Source of the DNA: Crystallibacter degradans
GTDB taxonomy: Bacteria > Actinomycetota > Actinomycetes > Actinomycetales > Micrococcaceae
NCBI RefSeq assembly: GCF_012952295.1
Contig: NZ_JABBCH010000002.1
Location: forward strand, 496,001 to 560,000
Length of the DNA stretch: 64,000 nucleotides
Reading direction: 5' to 3'
A model generated the notes under the pieces. It was not told the DNA's origin. It saw nothing but the letters and a program-made list of their open reading frames with translations, and did no database searches. Each line of letters opens with the position of its first letter. The stretch's first letter is position 1. This document shows, in pieces, positions 33,527 to 58,266 of the stretch. The position numbers were made by a program, and so were the translations under genes.

Positions 33527-34333
33527 TCATATGGTCTCGGGCTGGCAGCGCGGGCAGAAATACAGGTCCCGCTCCGTTAGCTCCGTCTCGCCCAGCTTGG
33601 CATGGACTACCGGGGTGCGGCAGCGCAGGCAGGGCTGCCCGGCCCGGCCGTAGACCCAGACCGGACTCGCGTTCCGGCCTGCCGGCCCGCCGGTGGTGTT
33701 GCGCCGGTTCCGGTCTTTGTTCGCTTCAAGCAGGGTCTTGGCCAGCTGCACGATCCGGGGCAGGTCCGGTACCTGGCCTACCTTCGCCAGCGGGTGCACG
33801 CCGGCCAGGAAACAGAGCTCGCAGCGGTAGATGTTGCCGATGCCGGCGAGGTTCCGCTGGTCCAGCAGCGCCAGGCCGATGCCGCGCTCCGGATCGGACC
33901 GCAGCCGCCGCAGCGCTTCCTCCGCGTCCCAATCCAGGCCCAGCAGATCCGGCCCCAGATGGCCCACTGCCTTGGCTTCCTCCGCCGTCGGTATGACTTC
34001 GAGGATGCCCAGCAGGAATCCGACGGCGGTGGCCGGCTTGGTCTCCAGCACCACGCGGGCCTGGAACGCGGGCTTGTTCCACCGCTGGCCGGGAGCGTAG
34101 ATCCGCCAGCTGCCGTCCATCAGCAGGTGGGAATGAATGCTCAGTTCCCCGGCGGGTCCGGAGGCGCGCATCAGCAGGTGCTTGCCGCGGGAGATGACGT
34201 TGTCCACGGTGTTGCCCGCGAGGTCCAGGGTGGCCAGCTTGGGCACGCGGAAGTCGGAGCGCAGCAGCACTTGCCCGGCCAGCGCGGCGTGCAGGCTGCG
34301 CGCGGTGCGCCAGACGTTGTCCCCCTCAGGCAC
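33527..34333 (-). CDS. Formamidopyrimidine/endonuclease VIII-type DNA glycosylase (Nei2-like)
   Basis: 268-residue base-excision repair enzyme. The N-terminal MPEGDNVWRTAR supplies catalytic Pro2 and Glu3; the helix-two-turn-helix core QRNLAGIGNIYRCELCFLAGVHP and a zinc finger near the C-terminus (Cys-Leu-Arg-Cys and CPRC) complete the Fpg/Nei fold. Mycobacterial Nei2 is adjacent to lhr in the same way. The GTG start lies 8 bases inside the Lhr stop region (GTGCCTGA), so translation is coupled to lhr. Confidence 0.92.
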   Translation of the reverse strand: MPEGDNVWRTARSLHAALAGQVLLRSDFRVPKLATLDLAGNTVDNVISRGKHLLMRASGPAGELSIHSHLLMDGSWRIYAPGQRWNKPAFQARVVLETKPATAVGFLLGILEVIPTAEEAKAVGHLGPDLLGLDWDAEEALRRLRSDPERGIGLALLDQRNLAGIGNIYRCELCFLAGVHPLAKVGQVPDLPRIVQLAKTLLEANKDRNRRNTTGGPAGRNASPVWVYGRAGQPCLRCRTPVVHAKLGETELTERDLYFCPRCQPETI

Positions 34334-37300
34334 GGAACCTCAGTCCCCGCGGCGTGGTGTAGAAGCCGGCGCCGGTCAGTGCCCGGGCCACGTCCGTGTC
34401 GAGCACGGGTGCGCCGTTCACCTTCTCCACGGCCATCTTGTCCGCGGCGCCGCGGCGGATGATGCCGACCAACGCCTCGGCACACAGCGTCAGCGCGTCC
34501 GGATCCTCGGTGAAGGTCAGCAGCGTCTTGCCGCCGCGCTCCACATACAGGGCCAGCTCCCCGTCCACCAGCACCACCAGCGCACCGGCCTTGCGGCCCG
34601 GCCGGTGTCCGCCGTCCTGCACCGGCCAGGCCAACGCCGCCCCGTACGGATTGGCCGGATCCGTGGCGGCGAGCGCGAGCGCGGACGGGGCCTGCTCGCC
34701 AAGCTGTGCATCGCGGTTGAAGGAGCGCAGCCGGTCCACGGTGGCGGGTACGGCGAACTGCGCGGCGCCGAGGTGCTCGATGAAGTAGCCGCGCCGGCAG
34801 CGACCGCTTTCCTCCAGCCGCGCCAGCACCTTGTAGAGCAGCCCGAAGCCGCCCGGAATCCCTTCATTGGCCACCGAGCCGCGGGTCACCACGCCGTAGC
34901 GGTCCAGCATCAGTTCGGCGGTGGCATGCGCGTGGATGGTCGGATCCGCTTCCGGCGCCGGCAGCAGCGACCAGCGCCCGGCCGCGAGCGGAAGTGACGC
35001 TCGTCCAGGGTGTCCCGCTCCTGCGCCCGGCCTCAGCCCGGCACCCGAGCCAAAGCCGCTCCCTGCGCCGAGCCCGTGAATCCGCCCGATCCGGCCCAGC
35101 CGTGCCGAGCGGGCGCGCGGCGCGGACGGCCGCTGCTTGTGTGCGGTGGTTCCGCCGGCGAGCAGGGCGCGCACCGGGGTGAACGTGTCATTGGTGATCC
35201 GCCCGGCCCAGACCAGTTCCCACAGGGCCGTCACGACGTCGGCGTCCGTGGCCTGCGTGCCGGCGGCCGCCAGCGCGTCCGCGAGTTGGCGGAAGAAGAA
35301 AGCTGCGCCGCCGAACTGCCCGCCGGAGGCAAGCAGGTTCAGCAGTTCGTACTGCAGCACGCTGGGCTCGAAATCGGGCTGCGGATTCAGCGTCAGCGGG
35401 GCGTTCTCGGCCAACTGCAACGTGATCCAGCCGTCGTTTCCCGCCAGTGAACCGGCGCCCGCCCACAGCACCTCGCCGGTGGCGGTCAGCTCGTCAAGCA
35501 TCGACGGCGCGTAATTGGCCACGCGGGTGCCCAGGATCAGCGGCTCCCAGGCCGACGCCGGCACGGGCACGCCGGAGAGCTGGTCGATCACGGTGGCCAC
35601 ACCGTCGAGTCCCCGCAGGCCGGAGCCGACGTTCTGCCAGACCGGCAGGAACCGCGCGTAGGTGGCCGGATCCACCGGCTCCACTTCCTGCCGGAGGGCG
35701 GCCAGCGAACGGCGGCGGATCTTGCGCAGCACCTCGACATCGCACCACTCCACCACACCGGTCACCGGCGGGACGGCGCTTTCCGGCGGACGGAACTCAC
35801 CCTCGGCCACGCGCCCGTCCTTGAGCAGCCGGCGCAGCGCGGTGTCGACCACGGCCACGCCGAGCCCCAGCCGGGCCGCGCATTCCGGCGCGGTGAACGG
35901 TCCGTGCGTGCGGGCGTACCGGCCCACCAGGTCCCCGAGCGGATCCGCCACCGGCTCGATGAACGCCAGCGGCACCCCCATCGGCAGCGGCACCCCGAGT
36001 GCGTCGCGCAGCCGCGCGGCGTCTTCGACGGCGGCCCAACGCCCGACGCCGGCAATGCCCACCTTGAGTGCGCGGTTGGCTTTGGCCAGTTCCGCCAGCA
36101 GTGGCTCGACATAGGCCACGGCGGCATCGTCCACCGCAGCCTCGCTGTCCGGCGTCGTGGTCTCGGCTGCTGCCGGCCCCGCGCCCTCGGGGAGATCGAC
36201 GCGCAAGGCGATTTCCGCCGTCGTGAGCGGTCCGAGCAACCGGAGCAGGTCCGCGATGCCCTCGATGCCGCGGACCTTCCGGTCCTCGCTGAGGCGCTGG
36301 AGCTCGCGCTCCGTGCGGGCGATGATGTCCGCGTCCAGCAGTTCGCGCAGTTCCGCCCGGCCCAGCAAGTCATTGAGCAGCGACGGATCCAGCGAGAGGG
36401 CCGCCGCGCGCCGCTCGGCCAGCGGGGAGTCGCCTTCGTAGAGGAAGGACGCCACGTAGCCGTAGAGCAGCGAGCGGGCGAACGGGGACGGTTGCGGCGT
36501 GGTGGTCTCGAGGATGCGCAGTTCCCGACGCTCGATGGAAGAGGCGATGTCTTTCAAAGCGGGCAGGTCGTAGACATCCTGCAGGCATTCGCGCACGGTT
36601 TCGAGCACGATGGGAAAGGTGGGGTACTTCCGGGCGACATCCAGCAGCTGGGCCGAGCGCTGGCGCTGCTGCCACAGGGGGGTGCGTTTGGCCGGGTTCT
36701 GCCGGGGGAGCAGCAGGGCACGGGCGGCGCACTCGCGGAACCGGGACGCGAAGAGTGCCGAGCCGCCGACCTCGGCCGTGACGATCTGGTCCAGCTCCTC
36801 CGGATCGAACAGGAACAGCTCCGCGCCCGGCGGCTCGTCCTCCATCATCGGCACGCGCAGCACAATGCCGTCATCTGCGGCCATGGCGGAGCCATCCATA
36901 CCGTAGCGCTGGTGCAGCCGGGCGCCGACGGCGAGGGCCCAGGGCGCGTGCACGGGCATGCCGAACGGGCTGTGCAGCACCACCCGCCAGTCGCCGAGCT
37001 CGTCATGGAAGCGCTCCACCACCAGTGCCCGGTCGCTGGGCACCACGTCCGTGGCCTGCCGCTGCTCGGCCAGATAGGCCACCAGGTTGGCGGCGGCCCA
37101 TTCATCCAGGCCGTTGCTGCGCAGCCGTTCCAGTGCCGGCTCCTCGGCTGTTGCGGACAGCTCGCGCACAAAGGCGCCCAGCGCGCGGCCCAGCTCAACC
37201 GGGCGGCCGAGCGAATCGCCCTTCCAGAACGGGAGTTTGCCGGGCTGGCCGAAGGCGGGGGAAACCAGCACCCGGTCATGGGTGATGTCTTCGATCCGCC

Positions 37301-39191
37301 AGCTCGTGGCGCCCAGCGCGAAGACATCCCCGACGCGCGATTCGTAGACCATCTCCTCGTCCAGCTCGCCGACCCGCCTGCCGCCCTTGCCCGCGCCGTC
37401 TTCGGAGCCCACGAGGTACACGCCGAAGAGCCCGCGGTCCGGAATGGTGCCGCCGGAGGTGACCGCGAGCCGCTGGGCGCCGGGTCGCCCGGTGATGGTT
37501 CCGGCCACGCGGTCCCAGATAATCCGCGGGCGCAGCTCGGCGAACTCGTCCGAAGGATAGCGGCCCGCGAGCAGGTCCAGCGTGGCCTCGAAGGCTGAGC
37601 GCGGCAGCGTGCCGAAGGGTGCGGAACGGCGTACGACGTCGAACCATTCCTCTACCTCCACGGGACCCAACGCTGTGGCCGCCACCGTTTGCTGGGCGAG
37701 GATGTCCAATGGGTTCGCCGGAATGTAGAGCGGCTCGATCCGCCCGGCCAGCATGCGCTCCACCGTGACCGTGGTGTTGACCAGGTCCTGGCGGTGTTTG
37801 GGGAACAGGACGCCCTGCGAGGTCTCGCCGACCTGGTGCCCGGCCCGGCCTACGCGCTGCAGCCCGCTGGCCACCGACTGCGGGGATTCCACCTGGACTA
37901 CCAGGTCAACGGCGCCCATGTCGATACCCAGTTCCAGGCTGGACGTGGCGACCACGCAGCGCAGCCGGCCGGACTTCAGGTCATCCTCGATCAGCGCCCG
38001 CTGGTCCTTGCTGACCGAACCGTGGTGGGCACGCGCCAGCAGCGGCTCCGCGCCGGAAACCGTTCCCGCCTGGGCCATGATCTGCGCAGGCATGCGGGAC
38101 GGGGAGCCGGTCATGGCCGGGCTGGCCGCTGTGGCACTTCCGGCGCCGGCCGAAGGCCCGTCGGCCCCGGCGGCATTGTCCGGTGGCTGTTCCGTCGCCC
38201 AGACCTCGGCGGCCGCCTGACGCTCTGCCCAGATTTCGTTGAAGCGGGCCGTGAGCCGTTCGGCCAGGCGCCGGGAGTTGGCGAAGACAATGGTGGACCG
38301 GTTTGCCGCGATCAGGTCCACGATCTTCTCTTCGACATGCGGCCAGATGGATGCCGGCTGTGCGCCCGGCCCGAGCTCCTCCGCCGACGGTGCCGCCAGC
38401 GCCGTCATGTCCTCCACCGGGACGGAGACGGTCAGGTCCCACTTCTTTTGCGACGGCGGCGCCACGATTTCCACCGGCGAGCTGCCGCCGAGGAAACGGG
38501 CCACCGTCTCCAGCGGTTCAACCGTGGCCGAAAGCCCGATCCGCTGGGCCCGCTTCGGCAGCAGCGCATCCAGCCGCTCCAGCGAGAGCGCCAAATGCGC
38601 CCCGCGCTTGGTCCCGGCCACGGCGTGGACTTCGTCCACAATGACCGTGTCCACCGCAGCCAGCGTCTCGCGCGCCTTGGAGGTCAGCATCAGGAACAGG
38701 GATTCCGGCGTCGTAATCAGGATGTCCGGCGGGTGGGTGAGCAGTCGGCGCCGGTCCGACGCCGGGGTGTCCCCGGACCGGACGCCGACAGTGATGTCCG
38801 GGGCGGGCAGGCCCAGGCGCCTGGCAGTCTGGGTGATGCCGATCAGCGGCGCGCGCAAGTTCCGTTCCACGTCCACGCCCAGGGCCTTCAGCGGGGAGAT
38901 ATAGAGGACTTTAGTGCCGCGGGAGGGTTTTTTGCCGCGCTTGCCTGCCGGAAGTTCTTCGATCGGCAGCTCCGGGGCCTGCTCGGCCGCGGTGATGAAG
39001 CCATCGAGCGCCCAGAGGAAGGCTGCCAGCGTCTTGCCGGATCCGGTAGGAGCGACCACCAGCGCGTGGGAGCCGGCCGAAATGGCGTTCCAGGCGCCCT
39101 CTTGCGCATCCGTGGGCGCGCTGAAGGCCCCGGCGAACCACGCGCTGGTGGCCGGGGAGAACCTGGAGAGAACCGGCGAGCTGTTTTCGAT
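34326..39191 (-). CDS. lhr: Lhr-type DNA helicase with predicted ATC start
   Basis: 1621 residues if translated from ATC 39191. Superfamily 2 helicase for DNA repair: Q-motif segment SAPTDAQEGAW (24-34), Walker A APTGSGKT (47-54), VDEVHAVAGTKRG (DEVH box, residues about 182-194), and VGRAGHQVG motif VI, followed by the large Lhr-specific C-terminal domain typical of the 1500-residue family. No ATG, GTG or TTG exists between the in-frame stop TAG (39201-39203) and GTG 39059, which falls inside VVAPTGSGKT and would remove the Q-motif. The ATC codon is 6 nt after TAGTCT, the same spacing as other leaderless starts here. Paired with nei2. Confidence 0.9.
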   Translation of the reverse strand: MENSSPVLSRFSPATSAWFAGAFSAPTDAQEGAWNAISAGSHALVVAPTGSGKTLAAFLWALDGFITAAEQAPELPIEELPAGKRGKKPSRGTKVLYISPLKALGVDVERNLRAPLIGITQTARRLGLPAPDITVGVRSGDTPASDRRRLLTHPPDILITTPESLFLMLTSKARETLAAVDTVIVDEVHAVAGTKRGAHLALSLERLDALLPKRAQRIGLSATVEPLETVARFLGGSSPVEIVAPPSQKKWDLTVSVPVEDMTALAAPSAEELGPGAQPASIWPHVEEKIVDLIAANRSTIVFANSRRLAERLTARFNEIWAERQAAAEVWATEQPPDNAAGADGPSAGAGSATAASPAMTGSPSRMPAQIMAQAGTVSGAEPLLARAHHGSVSKDQRALIEDDLKSGRLRCVVATSSLELGIDMGAVDLVVQVESPQSVASGLQRVGRAGHQVGETSQGVLFPKHRQDLVNTTVTVERMLAGRIEPLYIPANPLDILAQQTVAATALGPVEVEEWFDVVRRSAPFGTLPRSAFEATLDLLAGRYPSDEFAELRPRIIWDRVAGTITGRPGAQRLAVTSGGTIPDRGLFGVYLVGSEDGAGKGGRRVGELDEEMVYESRVGDVFALGATSWRIEDITHDRVLVSPAFGQPGKLPFWKGDSLGRPVELGRALGAFVRELSATAEEPALERLRSNGLDEWAAANLVAYLAEQRQATDVVPSDRALVVERFHDELGDWRVVLHSPFGMPVHAPWALAVGARLHQRYGMDGSAMAADDGIVLRVPMMEDEPPGAELFLFDPEELDQIVTAEVGGSALFASRFRECAARALLLPRQNPAKRTPLWQQRQRSAQLLDVARKYPTFPIVLETVRECLQDVYDLPALKDIASSIERRELRILETTTPQPSPFARSLLYGYVASFLYEGDSPLAERRAAALSLDPSLLNDLLGRAELRELLDADIIARTERELQRLSEDRKVRGIEGIADLLRLLGPLTTAEIALRVDLPEGAGPAAAETTTPDSEAAVDDAAVAYVEPLLAELAKANRALKVGIAGVGRWAAVEDAARLRDALGVPLPMGVPLAFIEPVADPLGDLVGRYARTHGPFTAPECAARLGLGVAVVDTALRRLLKDGRVAEGEFRPPESAVPPVTGVVEWCDVEVLRKIRRRSLAALRQEVEPVDPATYARFLPVWQNVGSGLRGLDGVATVIDQLSGVPVPASAWEPLILGTRVANYAPSMLDELTATGEVLWAGAGSLAGNDGWITLQLAENAPLTLNPQPDFEPSVLQYELLNLLASGGQFGGAAFFFRQLADALAAAGTQATDADVVTALWELVWAGRITNDTFTPVRALLAGGTTAHKQRPSAPRARSARLGRIGRIHGLGAGSGFGSGAGLRPGAGAGHPGRASLPLAAGRWSLLPAPEADPTIHAHATAELMLDRYGVVTRGSVANEGIPGGFGLLYKVLARLEESGRCRRGYFIEHLGAAQFAVPATVDRLRSFNRDAQLGEQAPSALALAATDPANPYGAALAWPVQDGGHRPGRKAGALVVLVDGELALYVERGGKTLLTFTEDPDALTLCAEALVGIIRRGAADKMAVEKVNGAPVLDTDVARALTGAGFYTTPRGLRFRA

Positions 39192-39197
39192 AGTTCG

Positions 39198-39203
39198 AGA
39201 CTA
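39198..39203 (-). promoter_or_regulatory. -10 hexamer TAGTCT before a predicted ATC start of lhr
   Basis: TAGTCT, 6 nt, ATC 39191. The TAG of this hexamer is also the in-frame stop that bounds the lhr reading frame. This is the only predicted non-ATG/GTG case. Confidence 0.6.
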
Positions 39204-39237
39204 TCGCCCGCCGCCGACAGGATGCATCCGCCGGCGG

Positions 39238-39930
39238 TTATGCGGCCACAAAAGTGCCGACCGTCATGAGCACCACGGCCTCGTTGGCGCAGCCGATCGT
39301 CTCCTGCGGCGCGGTCAGCCAGGCGGTGTCATTCGGCGAGTAGACACGCACTCCGGCCACATCCGCCTGGTTGCACTCGGGACCGTAGTTGCCGGCGTTG
39401 GTCTGCTGCAGCTGGGCCACGGCGGATTCGCCCGGCGCCAGCGCCACGGTCACCTTCTCCGCTGCGGTATCCCGGTCCGCCGGCGCGCCGACCTGGTTGC
39501 CTGCGGCGTCTACGTAGGACACCCCGGGGTAGCCGCGGACGGTGCAGTCTTCAGAGTCGATGTTGGTGACCACCAGGCTGCGGTAGACGCTGCCGGCCGC
39601 CCCGGCACCCGGCTCGGTCTTGATGGCAGCTTCCAACTGGTCTGCCTTGCATTCGCCCGTTTCGGCGATTCCCTCGGCTGGAGCGTCCGTCGCTTCGGCA
39701 GCCGGGGCGGAGGTTTCTGCTTCCTCCGCCGGCGCACTTTCAGTCGCGGCGGAGCCGGATCCCGACGCCGAACCGGAGGCCTGGTCCGAGGCCTCGGGGG
39801 CGGTGGACGAGGTGGCAGGAGCGCTGCCGGCGGGCTCCTGGGATTCCGACTGGCCGCAGCCGGCCAGCAGTACAGCACAACCCATCAGAACTGCCGCTGC
39901 TGCACCGGGCAGCTTGTTACGTTTCACCAT
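39238..39930 (-). CDS. DUF4232 domain lipoprotein
   Basis: 230-residue secreted lipoprotein: signal peptide ending in LLAGC with Cys25 as lipidation site, then a Ser/Ala/Glu/Thr-rich low-complexity stalk (about 27-90), then a DUF4232 beta-sandwich (about 90-230: ECKADQLEAAI ... SLVVTNIDSEDCTVRGYPGVSYVDAAG). Cell-surface exposed; function unknown. It is leaderless: TACGCT 6 nt before ATG 39930, with TTGACT 16 bases further up, the best complete leaderless promoter on the minus strand. It ends 35 bases before the lhr -10. Confidence 0.82.
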   Translation of the reverse strand: MVKRNKLPGAAAAVLMGCAVLLAGCGQSESQEPAGSAPATSSTAPEASDQASGSASGSGSAATESAPAEEAETSAPAAEATDAPAEGIAETGECKADQLEAAIKTEPGAGAAGSVYRSLVVTNIDSEDCTVRGYPGVSYVDAAGNQVGAPADRDTAAEKVTVALAPGESAVAQLQQTNAGNYGPECNQADVAGVRVYSPNDTAWLTAPQETIGCANEAVVLMTVGTFVAA

Positions 39931-56467: not shown

Positions 56468-56640
56468 TTGGCTTGCCCTGCTCTAATGCGCGCTGCAGGG
56501 CTTACGGCCCGCCGCAAGTACTTCGCCCATCGCATGCCTTCGGCCAGTCGCAAGAACCGGTGCCGAAAAGTTTTCTGCTGTTTTCTGCCCTTCTCCATCC
56601 AATGGTGTGTGCGTGGTCACAAACTGTCGGTGCTGGTTCA

Positions 56641-56646
56641 TAGGGT
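56641..56646 (+). promoter_or_regulatory. -10 hexamer TAGGGT, leaderless DUF222 gene
   Basis: TAGGGT, 6 nt, ATG 56653. Confidence 0.6.
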
Positions 56647-56652
56647 GGGTGT

Positions 56653-58266
56653 ATGGAAGATTTCCAGTTTGATTTCATACCGGCGCCGGACCGGGACCGT
56701 GGCCTGCGGGCGCTCGGTTTGGCGGGGAGTTCGCTGCTGGAAATCATGCTGCACAAACTCCTCCTCGATGCGTGGGCCGAGGAGAATCTGGCCTTCGGCG
56801 GCCGGCGCTCGGAGCCCTTCGACGAAGCCGCAGAGGAGGCCGGCCAGGTGCTGGCGAAGGCTGCGGTGCTGCCGGAGGCGCCGGGCCTGCCGGAAGGCTG
56901 GGAGGACCTGGCGCCGGAGGCGCTGACTGCAGTTCTTGGGCGGATTGATCCGGAGGCCCTGGATGATGTCGGGACCATTGATTACCTGCAGGCGTCCGCG
57001 AAAACCGTGGCGTGGCTGCAGTCCGGCCGGGTGAAGGCGTTGAACCGGTTCACCGAGCTGCGCCCGGACGAGGGCGCGGAGACCGGCAACGCGCACGGGT
57101 TCTCCTCCTGCGCCGCGACGGAGATCGCCGCTGCCCTGGCCCAGCCCCGCGGGGCTGCGCAGAAGGACCTCGCCGAGGCCGCGCAGCTGTGCGGGCATTT
57201 GCCGGCCACGGTGGAGGCGATGGCCGCCGGGGAGGTGGATCTGCCGCGGGCGACCGCGATCGCCCGCGGCTCCGCCGACCTGCCCGAGAACCTGCTGCCT
57301 GCGTTCGAGGCAGGGGTCCTGCCTAAAGCCGGCAAGGTCACCGTGGAGAGTGTGCGGGCCCGTGCGCGTAAGGCGCGTGAACGGCTGCACCCGGAAAGCC
57401 TCACCGTCCGCCACGAAAAAGCGAACCAGTCCCGCAACGTCGGTCTCGTGCCGCAGGATGACGGGATGGCCGAAGTCTGGTTCCGCTGCAGCGCGGACAA
57501 GGCGGTGATGGTGTTCAACCTGGTCCAGGCCCTCGCGAAGAAGCTGCAAGGCCCCGACGAGGCCCGGACCCTGCCCCAGCTGCGCGCCGACGTCATCACC
57601 GACCTGGTCCCCAACAACTCAGGCGCGTGTAACGGCACAGGCAACACCACCGGCACCTGCACGGGCGCCGGCGCAGCTACCGGTACCGGTAACGGAACCT
57701 GTACCGGCGCGGGGACGGGCAACGGGGCCGGGGCCGGCGTGACGGCCAGTGTCGCGGTCACGTTGTCGTTGGAAACCGCGGCAAGGTTGAGCGAGGAGCC
57801 CGGCGAACTCGCCGGGTACGGGCCGATCCCGCCCGAAATGACCCGGAACCTCGCCGGACTGGCGAAATCCTGGCTGCTGGTGCTCACGGATGAATACGAT
57901 AAAGCGATCGCCGCGGCGAAAGACCTCAGACACCCGCCCGAATGGCTCAAACGACTCGTCCGCTTACGTGACGGGCACTGCAGCGGACCCGGCTGCCGCG
58001 TGGAAGCCCGATTCTGCGAAGTAGATCACACCATCGCCTGGGAAGACGGCGGCAAAACAGTGCTGGAAAATCTTAAGGCCGCCTGCAAACCCGACCACAT
58101 TTCAAAACACGCCGGCGGCTGGAAAGTCACCCAGAATGCCGACGGCAGCACCGTCTGGAAATCGCGCACTGGCCACGAATGGACCAGCACACCCGAAAAC
58201 AGCTGGTCCATACGCCCGCCAACCGAACCACCACCACCGGACCTCTACACCCCACCACCGTTCTAG
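56653..58266 (+). CDS. HNH endonuclease with DUF222 domain (13E12 repeat type)
   Basis: 537 residues. The DUF222 N-terminal region (about 95-310: ALAQPRGAAQKDLAEAAQLCGHLPATVEAMAAGEVDLPRATAIARG) is followed by an insertion of about 45 residues (around 321-364) made of Gly, Thr, Asn, Ala and Cys in NGTGNTTGTCTGAG-like units, then the HNH domain (about 430-500): LVRLRDGHCSGPGCRVEARFCEVDHTIAWEDGGKTVLENLKAACKPDHISKH. HNH ligands are present (the second HH is PDH). These genes are common as multi-copy families in actinobacteria and are likely mobile or repair-associated; function unproven. Leaderless ATG 56653. Confidence 0.88.
   Translation: MEDFQFDFIPAPDRDRGLRALGLAGSSLLEIMLHKLLLDAWAEENLAFGGRRSEPFDEAAEEAGQVLAKAAVLPEAPGLPEGWEDLAPEALTAVLGRIDPEALDDVGTIDYLQASAKTVAWLQSGRVKALNRFTELRPDEGAETGNAHGFSSCAATEIAAALAQPRGAAQKDLAEAAQLCGHLPATVEAMAAGEVDLPRATAIARGSADLPENLLPAFEAGVLPKAGKVTVESVRARARKARERLHPESLTVRHEKANQSRNVGLVPQDDGMAEVWFRCSADKAVMVFNLVQALAKKLQGPDEARTLPQLRADVITDLVPNNSGACNGTGNTTGTCTGAGAATGTGNGTCTGAGTGNGAGAGVTASVAVTLSLETAARLSEEPGELAGYGPIPPEMTRNLAGLAKSWLLVLTDEYDKAIAAAKDLRHPPEWLKRLVRLRDGHCSGPGCRVEARFCEVDHTIAWEDGGKTVLENLKAACKPDHISKHAGGWKVTQNADGSTVWKSRTGHEWTSTPENSWSIRPPTEPPPPDLYTPPPF
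57616..57742 (+). repeat. GC-rich low-complexity repeat tract in the DUF222-HNH gene
   Basis: About 127 bases of imperfect (GGCACCGGTAACGG)-like units coding Gly/Thr/Asn/Cys; the repeat lies between DUF222 and HNH domains and is an in-frame linker expansion. Confidence 0.75.

Follow-up and report, generated by a model that had tools for sequence, protein, structure and literature searches.

The closest described counterparts of the locus reported here are the leaderless mRNAs of mycobacteria (Shell et al. 2015, PMC4633059), which carry their start codon at the 5' end and have no Shine-Dalgarno sequence. As reported in that study for M. smegmatis, a selection among all 64 codons at position +1 of a leaderless reporter returned ATG or GTG in all but 547 of 343,242 reads, while ATC was used as a negative control in leaderless tests and gave 0.2% at a leadered site with a Shine-Dalgarno sequence (PMC4633059). 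The same source describes a purine at +1 as usual for M. tuberculosis transcription starts, and Ribo-RET in that species is reported to have revealed no enrichment of ATC at leadered starts (PMC9094748). In E. coli, IF3 is reported to disfavour weak third-base pairs in vitro, for example AUC/UAU and AUC/AAU (PMC10158994), and to counter both non-canonical codons and leaderless mRNAs, for which initiation by 70S ribosomes has been proposed (PMC2268962). In a leaderless fore-cistron of C. glutamicum, an engineered change of AUG to AUC lowered expression (PMC10367133).

Start codons other than AUG and GUG provide a second point of comparison. E. coli pcnB is said to begin with AUU or AUA. The same codons serve as starts in S. 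aureus cvfC1, ccpN and infC, where a conserved, weak start limits expression and is described as accompanied by extended Shine-Dalgarno motifs (PMC13009471). In Staphylothermus marinus, an ATC start was proposed for the ribosomal protein gene L12ae by alignment, because the gene was without a valid start (PMC2678158). The third set of related systems comprises the PafBC-dependent P1 promoters, among them mycobacterial recA P1 and that of the lhr-nei2 operon; the RecA-independent DNA-damage motif has been given as tTGTCRgtg-8 nt-TannnT (PMC5656591), and PafBC-mediated induction has been reported for lhr-nei2 (PMC11323726).

The lhr gene of Crystallibacter degradans, which encodes a DNA-repair helicase, resembles each of these systems in part. 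As in the mycobacterial leaderless mRNAs, its start codon is proposed to lie at the 5' end with no Shine-Dalgarno sequence ahead of it; whereas AUG or GUG alone are used at +1 in the mycobacterial case, the lhr site reads ATC, or AUC in the mRNA (PMC4633059). With the PafBC-dependent P1 promoters it shares a TGTCRG box, a spacing of 10 nt and a TAnnnT element before the gene, and the PafC-type helix-turn-helix family is also present in this genome, a likeness at the level of sequence. The S. aureus genes offer a parallel in that their start codon, weak and other than AUG, is conserved and limits expression, but differ in their extended Shine-Dalgarno motifs (PMC13009471), since none of five types of Shine-Dalgarno-like string was found at lhr (positions 39150-39260). 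The L12ae gene of S. marinus is likened to lhr by an ATC start deduced from alignment for want of a valid one; it is archaeal, and the part of the account drawn on here gives no promoter or transcript geometry (PMC2678158).

The lhr locus and its putative start codon

The gene lies on the minus strand of the window, by which we mean the whole 64,000-nucleotide stretch of DNA analysed. The features of the locus, in the direction of transcription, are as follows.

39238..39930, minus strand: upstream gene encoding a DUF4232 protein (Pfam PF14016, 107.7 bits against a cut-off of 27)
39201..39227, minus strand: 8-codon ATG...TAG frame overlapping the putative promoter, in the lhr frame
39214..39219, minus strand: TGTCGG box of a putative PafBC-type (RecA-independent) DNA-damage promoter, by motif match, 10 nt before the -10 element
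39198..39203, minus strand: putative -10 element TAGTCT, whose TAG is also the in-frame stop bounding the open reading frame
39189..39191, minus strand: proposed start codon ATC, with its A (39191) as the proposed transcription start; in frame, 6 nt past the -10 element, in the place taken by ATG or GTG at most other lhr loci
39135..39161, minus strand: conserved FSPATSAWF in the N-terminal region of Lhr, lying upstream of GTG 39059
39057..39059, minus strand: GTG, start of the mechanical ORF call (1577 aa), rejected here as the start
34326..39191, minus strand: lhr coding sequence for an Lhr-type large helicase-related protein of 1621 residues, read from ATC 39191 through the TGA whose last base is 34326

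The lhr frame is bounded by TAG 39203-39201 and by the TGA ending at 34326, and the codons that follow the TAG read TCT CGA ACT ATC (39191) GAA AAC AGC TCG CCG GTT CTC TCC AGG TTC. The open frame translates as SRTIENSSPVLSRFSPATSAWFAGAFSAPTDAQEGAWNAISAGSHALVVAPTGSGKT. Its product matched the NCBIfam profile NF007284 with 1760.3 bits (cut-off 1496) over residues 3-1619, and carries the Pfam domains DEAD, Helicase_C, WH_Lhr, DEAD_assoc and WH2/WH3/WH4_Lhr. By this full-length profile match, together with the Lhr winged-helix domains, the protein is an Lhr helicase.

A preliminary description of this DNA had noted that no in-frame ATG, GTG or TTG lies between TAG 39203-39201 and GTG 39059, and that TAGTCT, whose TAG is the bounding stop, stands exactly 6 nt ahead of ATC; both points hold on re-reading the sequence. 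It had also placed the coding sequence for the expected Lhr N-terminus directly from ATC 39191, in agreement with the match to NF007284 from residue 3 and the position of FSPATSAWF upstream of GTG 39059. One detail was slightly off, in that a start at GTG 39059 had been said to cut through Walker A. Since this GTG encodes the first V of VVAPTGSGKT, the cut would fall just before Walker A, which would be kept; what would go is the conserved N-terminus, 44 codons from ATC that include FSPATSAWF and the PTDAQ region.

The site in sister species

The comparison with related Micrococcaceae genomes suggested in the preliminary description was made through an lhr search covering 59 relatives plus ten genomes of the genus (the window genome being G000). 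The gene was found in nine of the ten genus genomes, seven of which have ATC at the site; in the tenth, G005, lhr was unmatched with a 199-aa query, and an 867-aa query brought up only weak matches to helicases. The three closest sister species (G004, G002 and G007) have the identical sequence TAG TCT CGA ACT ATC GAA AAC AGC TCG CCG GTT. G009 and G001 read TAGTCT CGGATAC ATC GGA/GGC ACA/ACC AAC, with ATC in frame 7 nt past TAGTCT, and G006 reads TAGGCT CAGACC ATC GGT ATG, with an ATG two codons past ATC. At the same site G008 and G003 have ATG (TAGGCT GGGCACG ATG GGA). The whole ATC triplet, beyond its A alone, is kept in three sub-clades. Because separate assemblies of other species share the ATC, the sequencing error that had been offered as an alternative is very unlikely.

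A tree was built from 27 Lhr protein stretches, and the history of the codon was judged on it by eye. The genus was supported at 99/97. Within it, G009 and G001 (ATC) formed one sub-clade and G000, G004, G002 and G007 (ATC) another; the third, joined at 94/89, united G006 (ATC...ATG) with the pair G008 and G003 (ATG), and the branching order of the three sub-clades had no resolution in this tree. The shortest history, judged by eye, is one in which ATC was gained once and changed to ATG in G008/G003, as against three separate gains. It appears that most of the genus has retained ATC and that one sub-clade has exchanged it for ATG, and the fact that the ATG of G008/G003 stands in the same place supports this place as that of the start codon.

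The arrangement of the upstream sequence bears on how ribosomes would reach the ATC. The DUF4232 gene lies on the same strand as lhr and ends 46 nt ahead of ATC, and in four sisters an ATG...TAG frame (GTG in G004) ends 9 nt before it. Lhr might then be made mainly from a longer transcript, on which ribosomes ending at DUF4232 or at the 8-codon frame re-initiate at ATC 39191; AUC would still be the start codon, on an mRNA with a leader. Post-termination starts at non-canonical codons are described with inactive ribosome recycling factor (PMC2268962). However, the 8-codon frame has no same-frame counterpart in G009, G001 and G006, all of which have ATC, none of the five types of Shine-Dalgarno-like string occurs in 39150-39260, and the promoter with its 6-7 nt geometry is conserved far more widely. 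We regard re-initiation as unlikely, if a reading to be taken seriously, and favour a leaderless start at the same codon.

TAGTCT provides the in-frame stop in the four sisters; in G009 and G001 it falls out of frame with lhr, whose reading frame stays open upstream. In these two genomes the only in-frame TTG or GTG lies farther upstream, within the promoter box or next to it. An N-terminally longer Lhr could arise from such starts, or from an upstream ATG combined with read-through of the TAG, and ATG 39227 is indeed in frame with that TAG. Against this, no upstream start is common to the sub-clades, and those present sit within or next to the promoter; the 60 nt upstream of ATC are without third-position bias (for example, 6/6/6 at the three codon positions between G000 and G004, in an ungapped comparison that indels inflate). 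We give a longer Lhr a very slim chance.

Selection on the codons of lhr

The ratio dN/dS was computed over 668-686 codons, from about the first 690 of about 1620. The four ATC sisters gave 0.025-0.062 and the ATG pair G008/G003 gave 0.064; for the other ATC pair, G009/G001, the value was 0.183, and for pairs between sub-clades 0.106-0.205. The gene is under purifying selection, and a decaying lhr is contradicted by these values. The absence of a canonical start codon could in principle reflect either a sequencing error or a start lost from a decaying gene; with the same sequence in the assemblies of four species, open frames that span 1606-1722 codons across all seven genomes with ATC, and dN/dS at 0.025-0.062 among sisters and 0.183 in G009/G001, we find this reading scarcely credible. 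The idea of a lost start codon holds in one respect, in that an ATG seems to have turned into ATC, but the gene nevertheless stayed under selection.

Selection can be followed upstream of GTG 39059. Across the six sister pairs, the 30 codons 39161-39072 show 2-6 synonymous and 0 non-synonymous changes, which contradicts GTG 39059 as the start. Closer to ATC, codons 2 and 3 after it differ between G009 and G001 in their third positions only (GGA/GGC, ACA/ACC). In this pair the stretch of 15 codons that begins at ATC and reaches the FxxxTxxWF motif carries 6 non-synonymous against 5 synonymous changes, and this tail is therefore loosely constrained.

These data also bear on the alternative that ATC marks the transcription start alone, and that translation begins at another downstream non-canonical codon (such as GTT, CTC, ACG or ATT) or at GTG 39059. 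In its favour, ATC is no accepted leaderless start and a purine at +1 is reported as usual for M. tuberculosis transcription starts (PMC4633059). Yet sisters have CTT or CTG in place of the CTC codon, codons 39161-39072 vary only synonymously among them, and the full ATC, beyond its A, is kept in three sub-clades. We consider a downstream start decidedly improbable, and translation from the ATC itself remains the reading that we prefer.

A survey of lhr loci

To the genus comparison we added a survey of 231 loci (L001-L231), which came down to 220 distinct ones once nine duplicates had been removed together with L066, which was too short, and L131, a pattern match at the lhr of the window itself. 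Micrococcaceae make up much of the sample, whose loci are phylogenetically non-independent; a wider search matched 285 of 295 genomes, from which 20 new loci and 100 stretches were used, mainly by similarity order. The promoter score and its thresholds were chosen after a stricter search for TAnnnT had left many loci unmatched, owing to -10 elements that begin with another base. Because the scoring was defined with some of the data already in view, and one family weighs heavily in the sample, the survey counts are descriptive.

A promoter score of at least 7.9 was reached by 173 of the 220 distinct loci. The in-frame codon 6-7 nt past the -10 element was ATG in 109 of these, GTG in 49, ATC in 7 and another codon in 8, and all seven ATC loci belong to the window's genus. 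With the threshold at 8.9, ATC was found in 6 of 139 loci and other codons in 7; at 6.9 the corresponding numbers were 7 of 204 and 17. The geometry of the lhr ATC is the same as that of the 158 loci with ATG or GTG 6-7 nt past the -10 element. Each of the eight exceptions (L010, L023, L028, L056, L057, L091, L095 and L226) has an in-frame ATG further downstream, ahead of FxxxTxxWF.

In L010 (= L033), L226 and L023 the promoter is followed by an out-of-frame GTG near the leaderless distance, with the in-frame ATG further downstream, and these loci perhaps have a short leaderless frame ahead of lhr.

Lack of a canonical start is rare for lhr: no ATG, GTG or TTG lies between the in-frame stop and FxxxTxxWF in 6 of the 220 loci. 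Four of the six are those of the window genome and its three closest sisters; the others are L016 (G028) and L166 (G119), from another genus of the family, in which CTG occupies the position of the ATG found in L174 and L212 of that genus. This CTG lies 14 nt past a TAG that, judged by eye, maybe ends an overlapping upstream gene (...EVGPYRIQ*), making a coupled CTG start possible in L016 and L166.

A putative PafBC-type promoter

The sequence ahead of lhr reads cTGTCGGcg-GCGGGCGA-TAGTCT. It agrees with the published DNA-damage motif at all capital-letter positions and in spacing, and deviates at two lower-case positions (c for the leading t; gcg for gtg). By sequence it is a match to the PafBC-type (P1) motif, and PafBC-dependent induction by DNA damage is predicted. 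The preliminary description had mentioned neither this promoter nor the published restriction of leaderless starts to ATG and GTG in M. smegmatis. All ten genus genomes have the HTH_PafC family; as 5 of 14 control genomes gave a match to it too, its presence in the genus is weak support.

Within the C. degradans genome, the promoter pattern followed by ATG or GTG at 6-7 nt gave 9 matches, against 4 for the reversed control, and of the nine, seven lead into an in-frame ORF that is 109 codons long or longer. A DUF222-HNH protein (Pfam) is among the products. Two further ORFs behind these matches encode what we take to be an SbcD-like protein and a DnaQ-type exonuclease-like protein. A promoter of this type occurs in the window at 56625-56655 (plus strand), with ATG 6 nt past the -10 element, ahead of a DUF222-HNH (Pfam) gene; a like promoter with ATG at 6 nt is found at L232 (G000:C1:373466-373496), and its product is closely similar to that of the gene behind window 56625-56655.

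With ATC in place of ATG or GTG, the pattern gave 1 match in this genome, lhr itself, against 1 match for the reversed control. Over the ten genus genomes it gave 12 matches, six of them lhr, against 6 control matches; the lhr of G001 was missed because its box reads TGACGG. Since the six non-lhr matches equal the control count, matches outside lhr are at chance level, and the evidence for the lhr ATC lies in its place. On the same count we rejected the idea that ATC starts form a broader class behind promoters of this type. Four of the six non-lhr matches have at most 20 codons from ATC.

The other two, L244 (G009) and L246 (G001), are a second match to the promoter with ATC that has a similar look in both genomes; their frames run for 430 and 122 codons and are dissimilar in sequence, and both matches fall within the yield of the control pattern.

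Discussion

Leaderless initiation at AUC is the best-supported reading of this locus, and we think it likely to be right. In its favour are the promoter match and its geometry, the lack of any other shared start, the presence of ATG or GTG at this site in 158 of 173 promoter-bearing loci, the ATC of seven of the nine lhr-bearing genus genomes, and the selection seen on codons downstream. Against it weigh the codon selection at +1 in M. smegmatis, as published, which left only ATG and GTG and used ATC as a negative control (PMC4633059); the promoter-plus-ATC matches outside lhr, which equal the control (6 against 6 in ten genomes); the genus sequences in which a canonical codon is at hand, with TTG or GTG upstream in G009/G001 and ATG two codons past ATC in G006; the loosely constrained tail of G009/G001; the lack of an lhr match in G005; and the published Ribo-RET, IF3 and C. 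glutamicum results cited above. A search of open-access papers returned no natural leaderless AUC start among the matches listed.

From these comparisons we infer a sequence of events running from the transcription start to the initiating tRNA, the form of the ribosome, and a low efficiency and its use. A PafBC-type DNA-damage promoter would drive transcription of lhr, with the A of ATC 39191 as the start site; with this A as the likely +1, the mRNA would begin AUCGAAAAC and would be leaderless, its 5' end being the AUC. Ribosomes, perhaps whole 70S particles as proposed for leaderless mRNAs, would initiate at this codon, and the free 5' end may let initiation escape the codon check. The ordinary initiator tRNA (anticodon CAU) would read AUC, with a C-C mismatch tolerated at the third position. 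The AUC start would probably be inefficient, and Lhr could in this way be kept low until DNA damage raises transcription.

The tRNA genes of the genome speak to the decoding step. There are 48 at the Rfam threshold, in 40 stretches, which were searched with one initiator-type stem pattern. The pattern occurs in two tRNA stretches, both with the anticodon CAU; no dedicated AUC initiator was found with it among the 48 tRNAs, the sole GAT tRNA being called as tRNA-Ile and lacking the initiator stem pattern, and a special initiator tRNA for AUC was on this basis set aside. As both initiator-type tRNAs are CAU, decoding of AUC would fall to the normal initiator, through a C-C mismatch, and the start should be weak.

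More broadly, we lean towards the view that the genus keeps AUC as a natural leaderless start, either because its ribosomes accept the codon at a free 5' end or because a weak start holds Lhr low until the promoter is activated. Gene callers limited to ATG, GTG and TTG would trim 44 codons off lhr in these species, which is what happened in the mechanical ORF list, and they may likewise conceal further leaderless genes that begin in unusual ways. The choice of first codon in leaderless mRNAs is poorly understood, and the stated mycobacterial rule is AUG or GUG only. The conserved AUC, together with sister species that have ATG in its place, would form a ready series for the study of codon discrimination without a Shine-Dalgarno sequence, and, if true, a natural AUC start in this Arthrobacter-like genus would be a testable exception to the mycobacterial leaderless rule.
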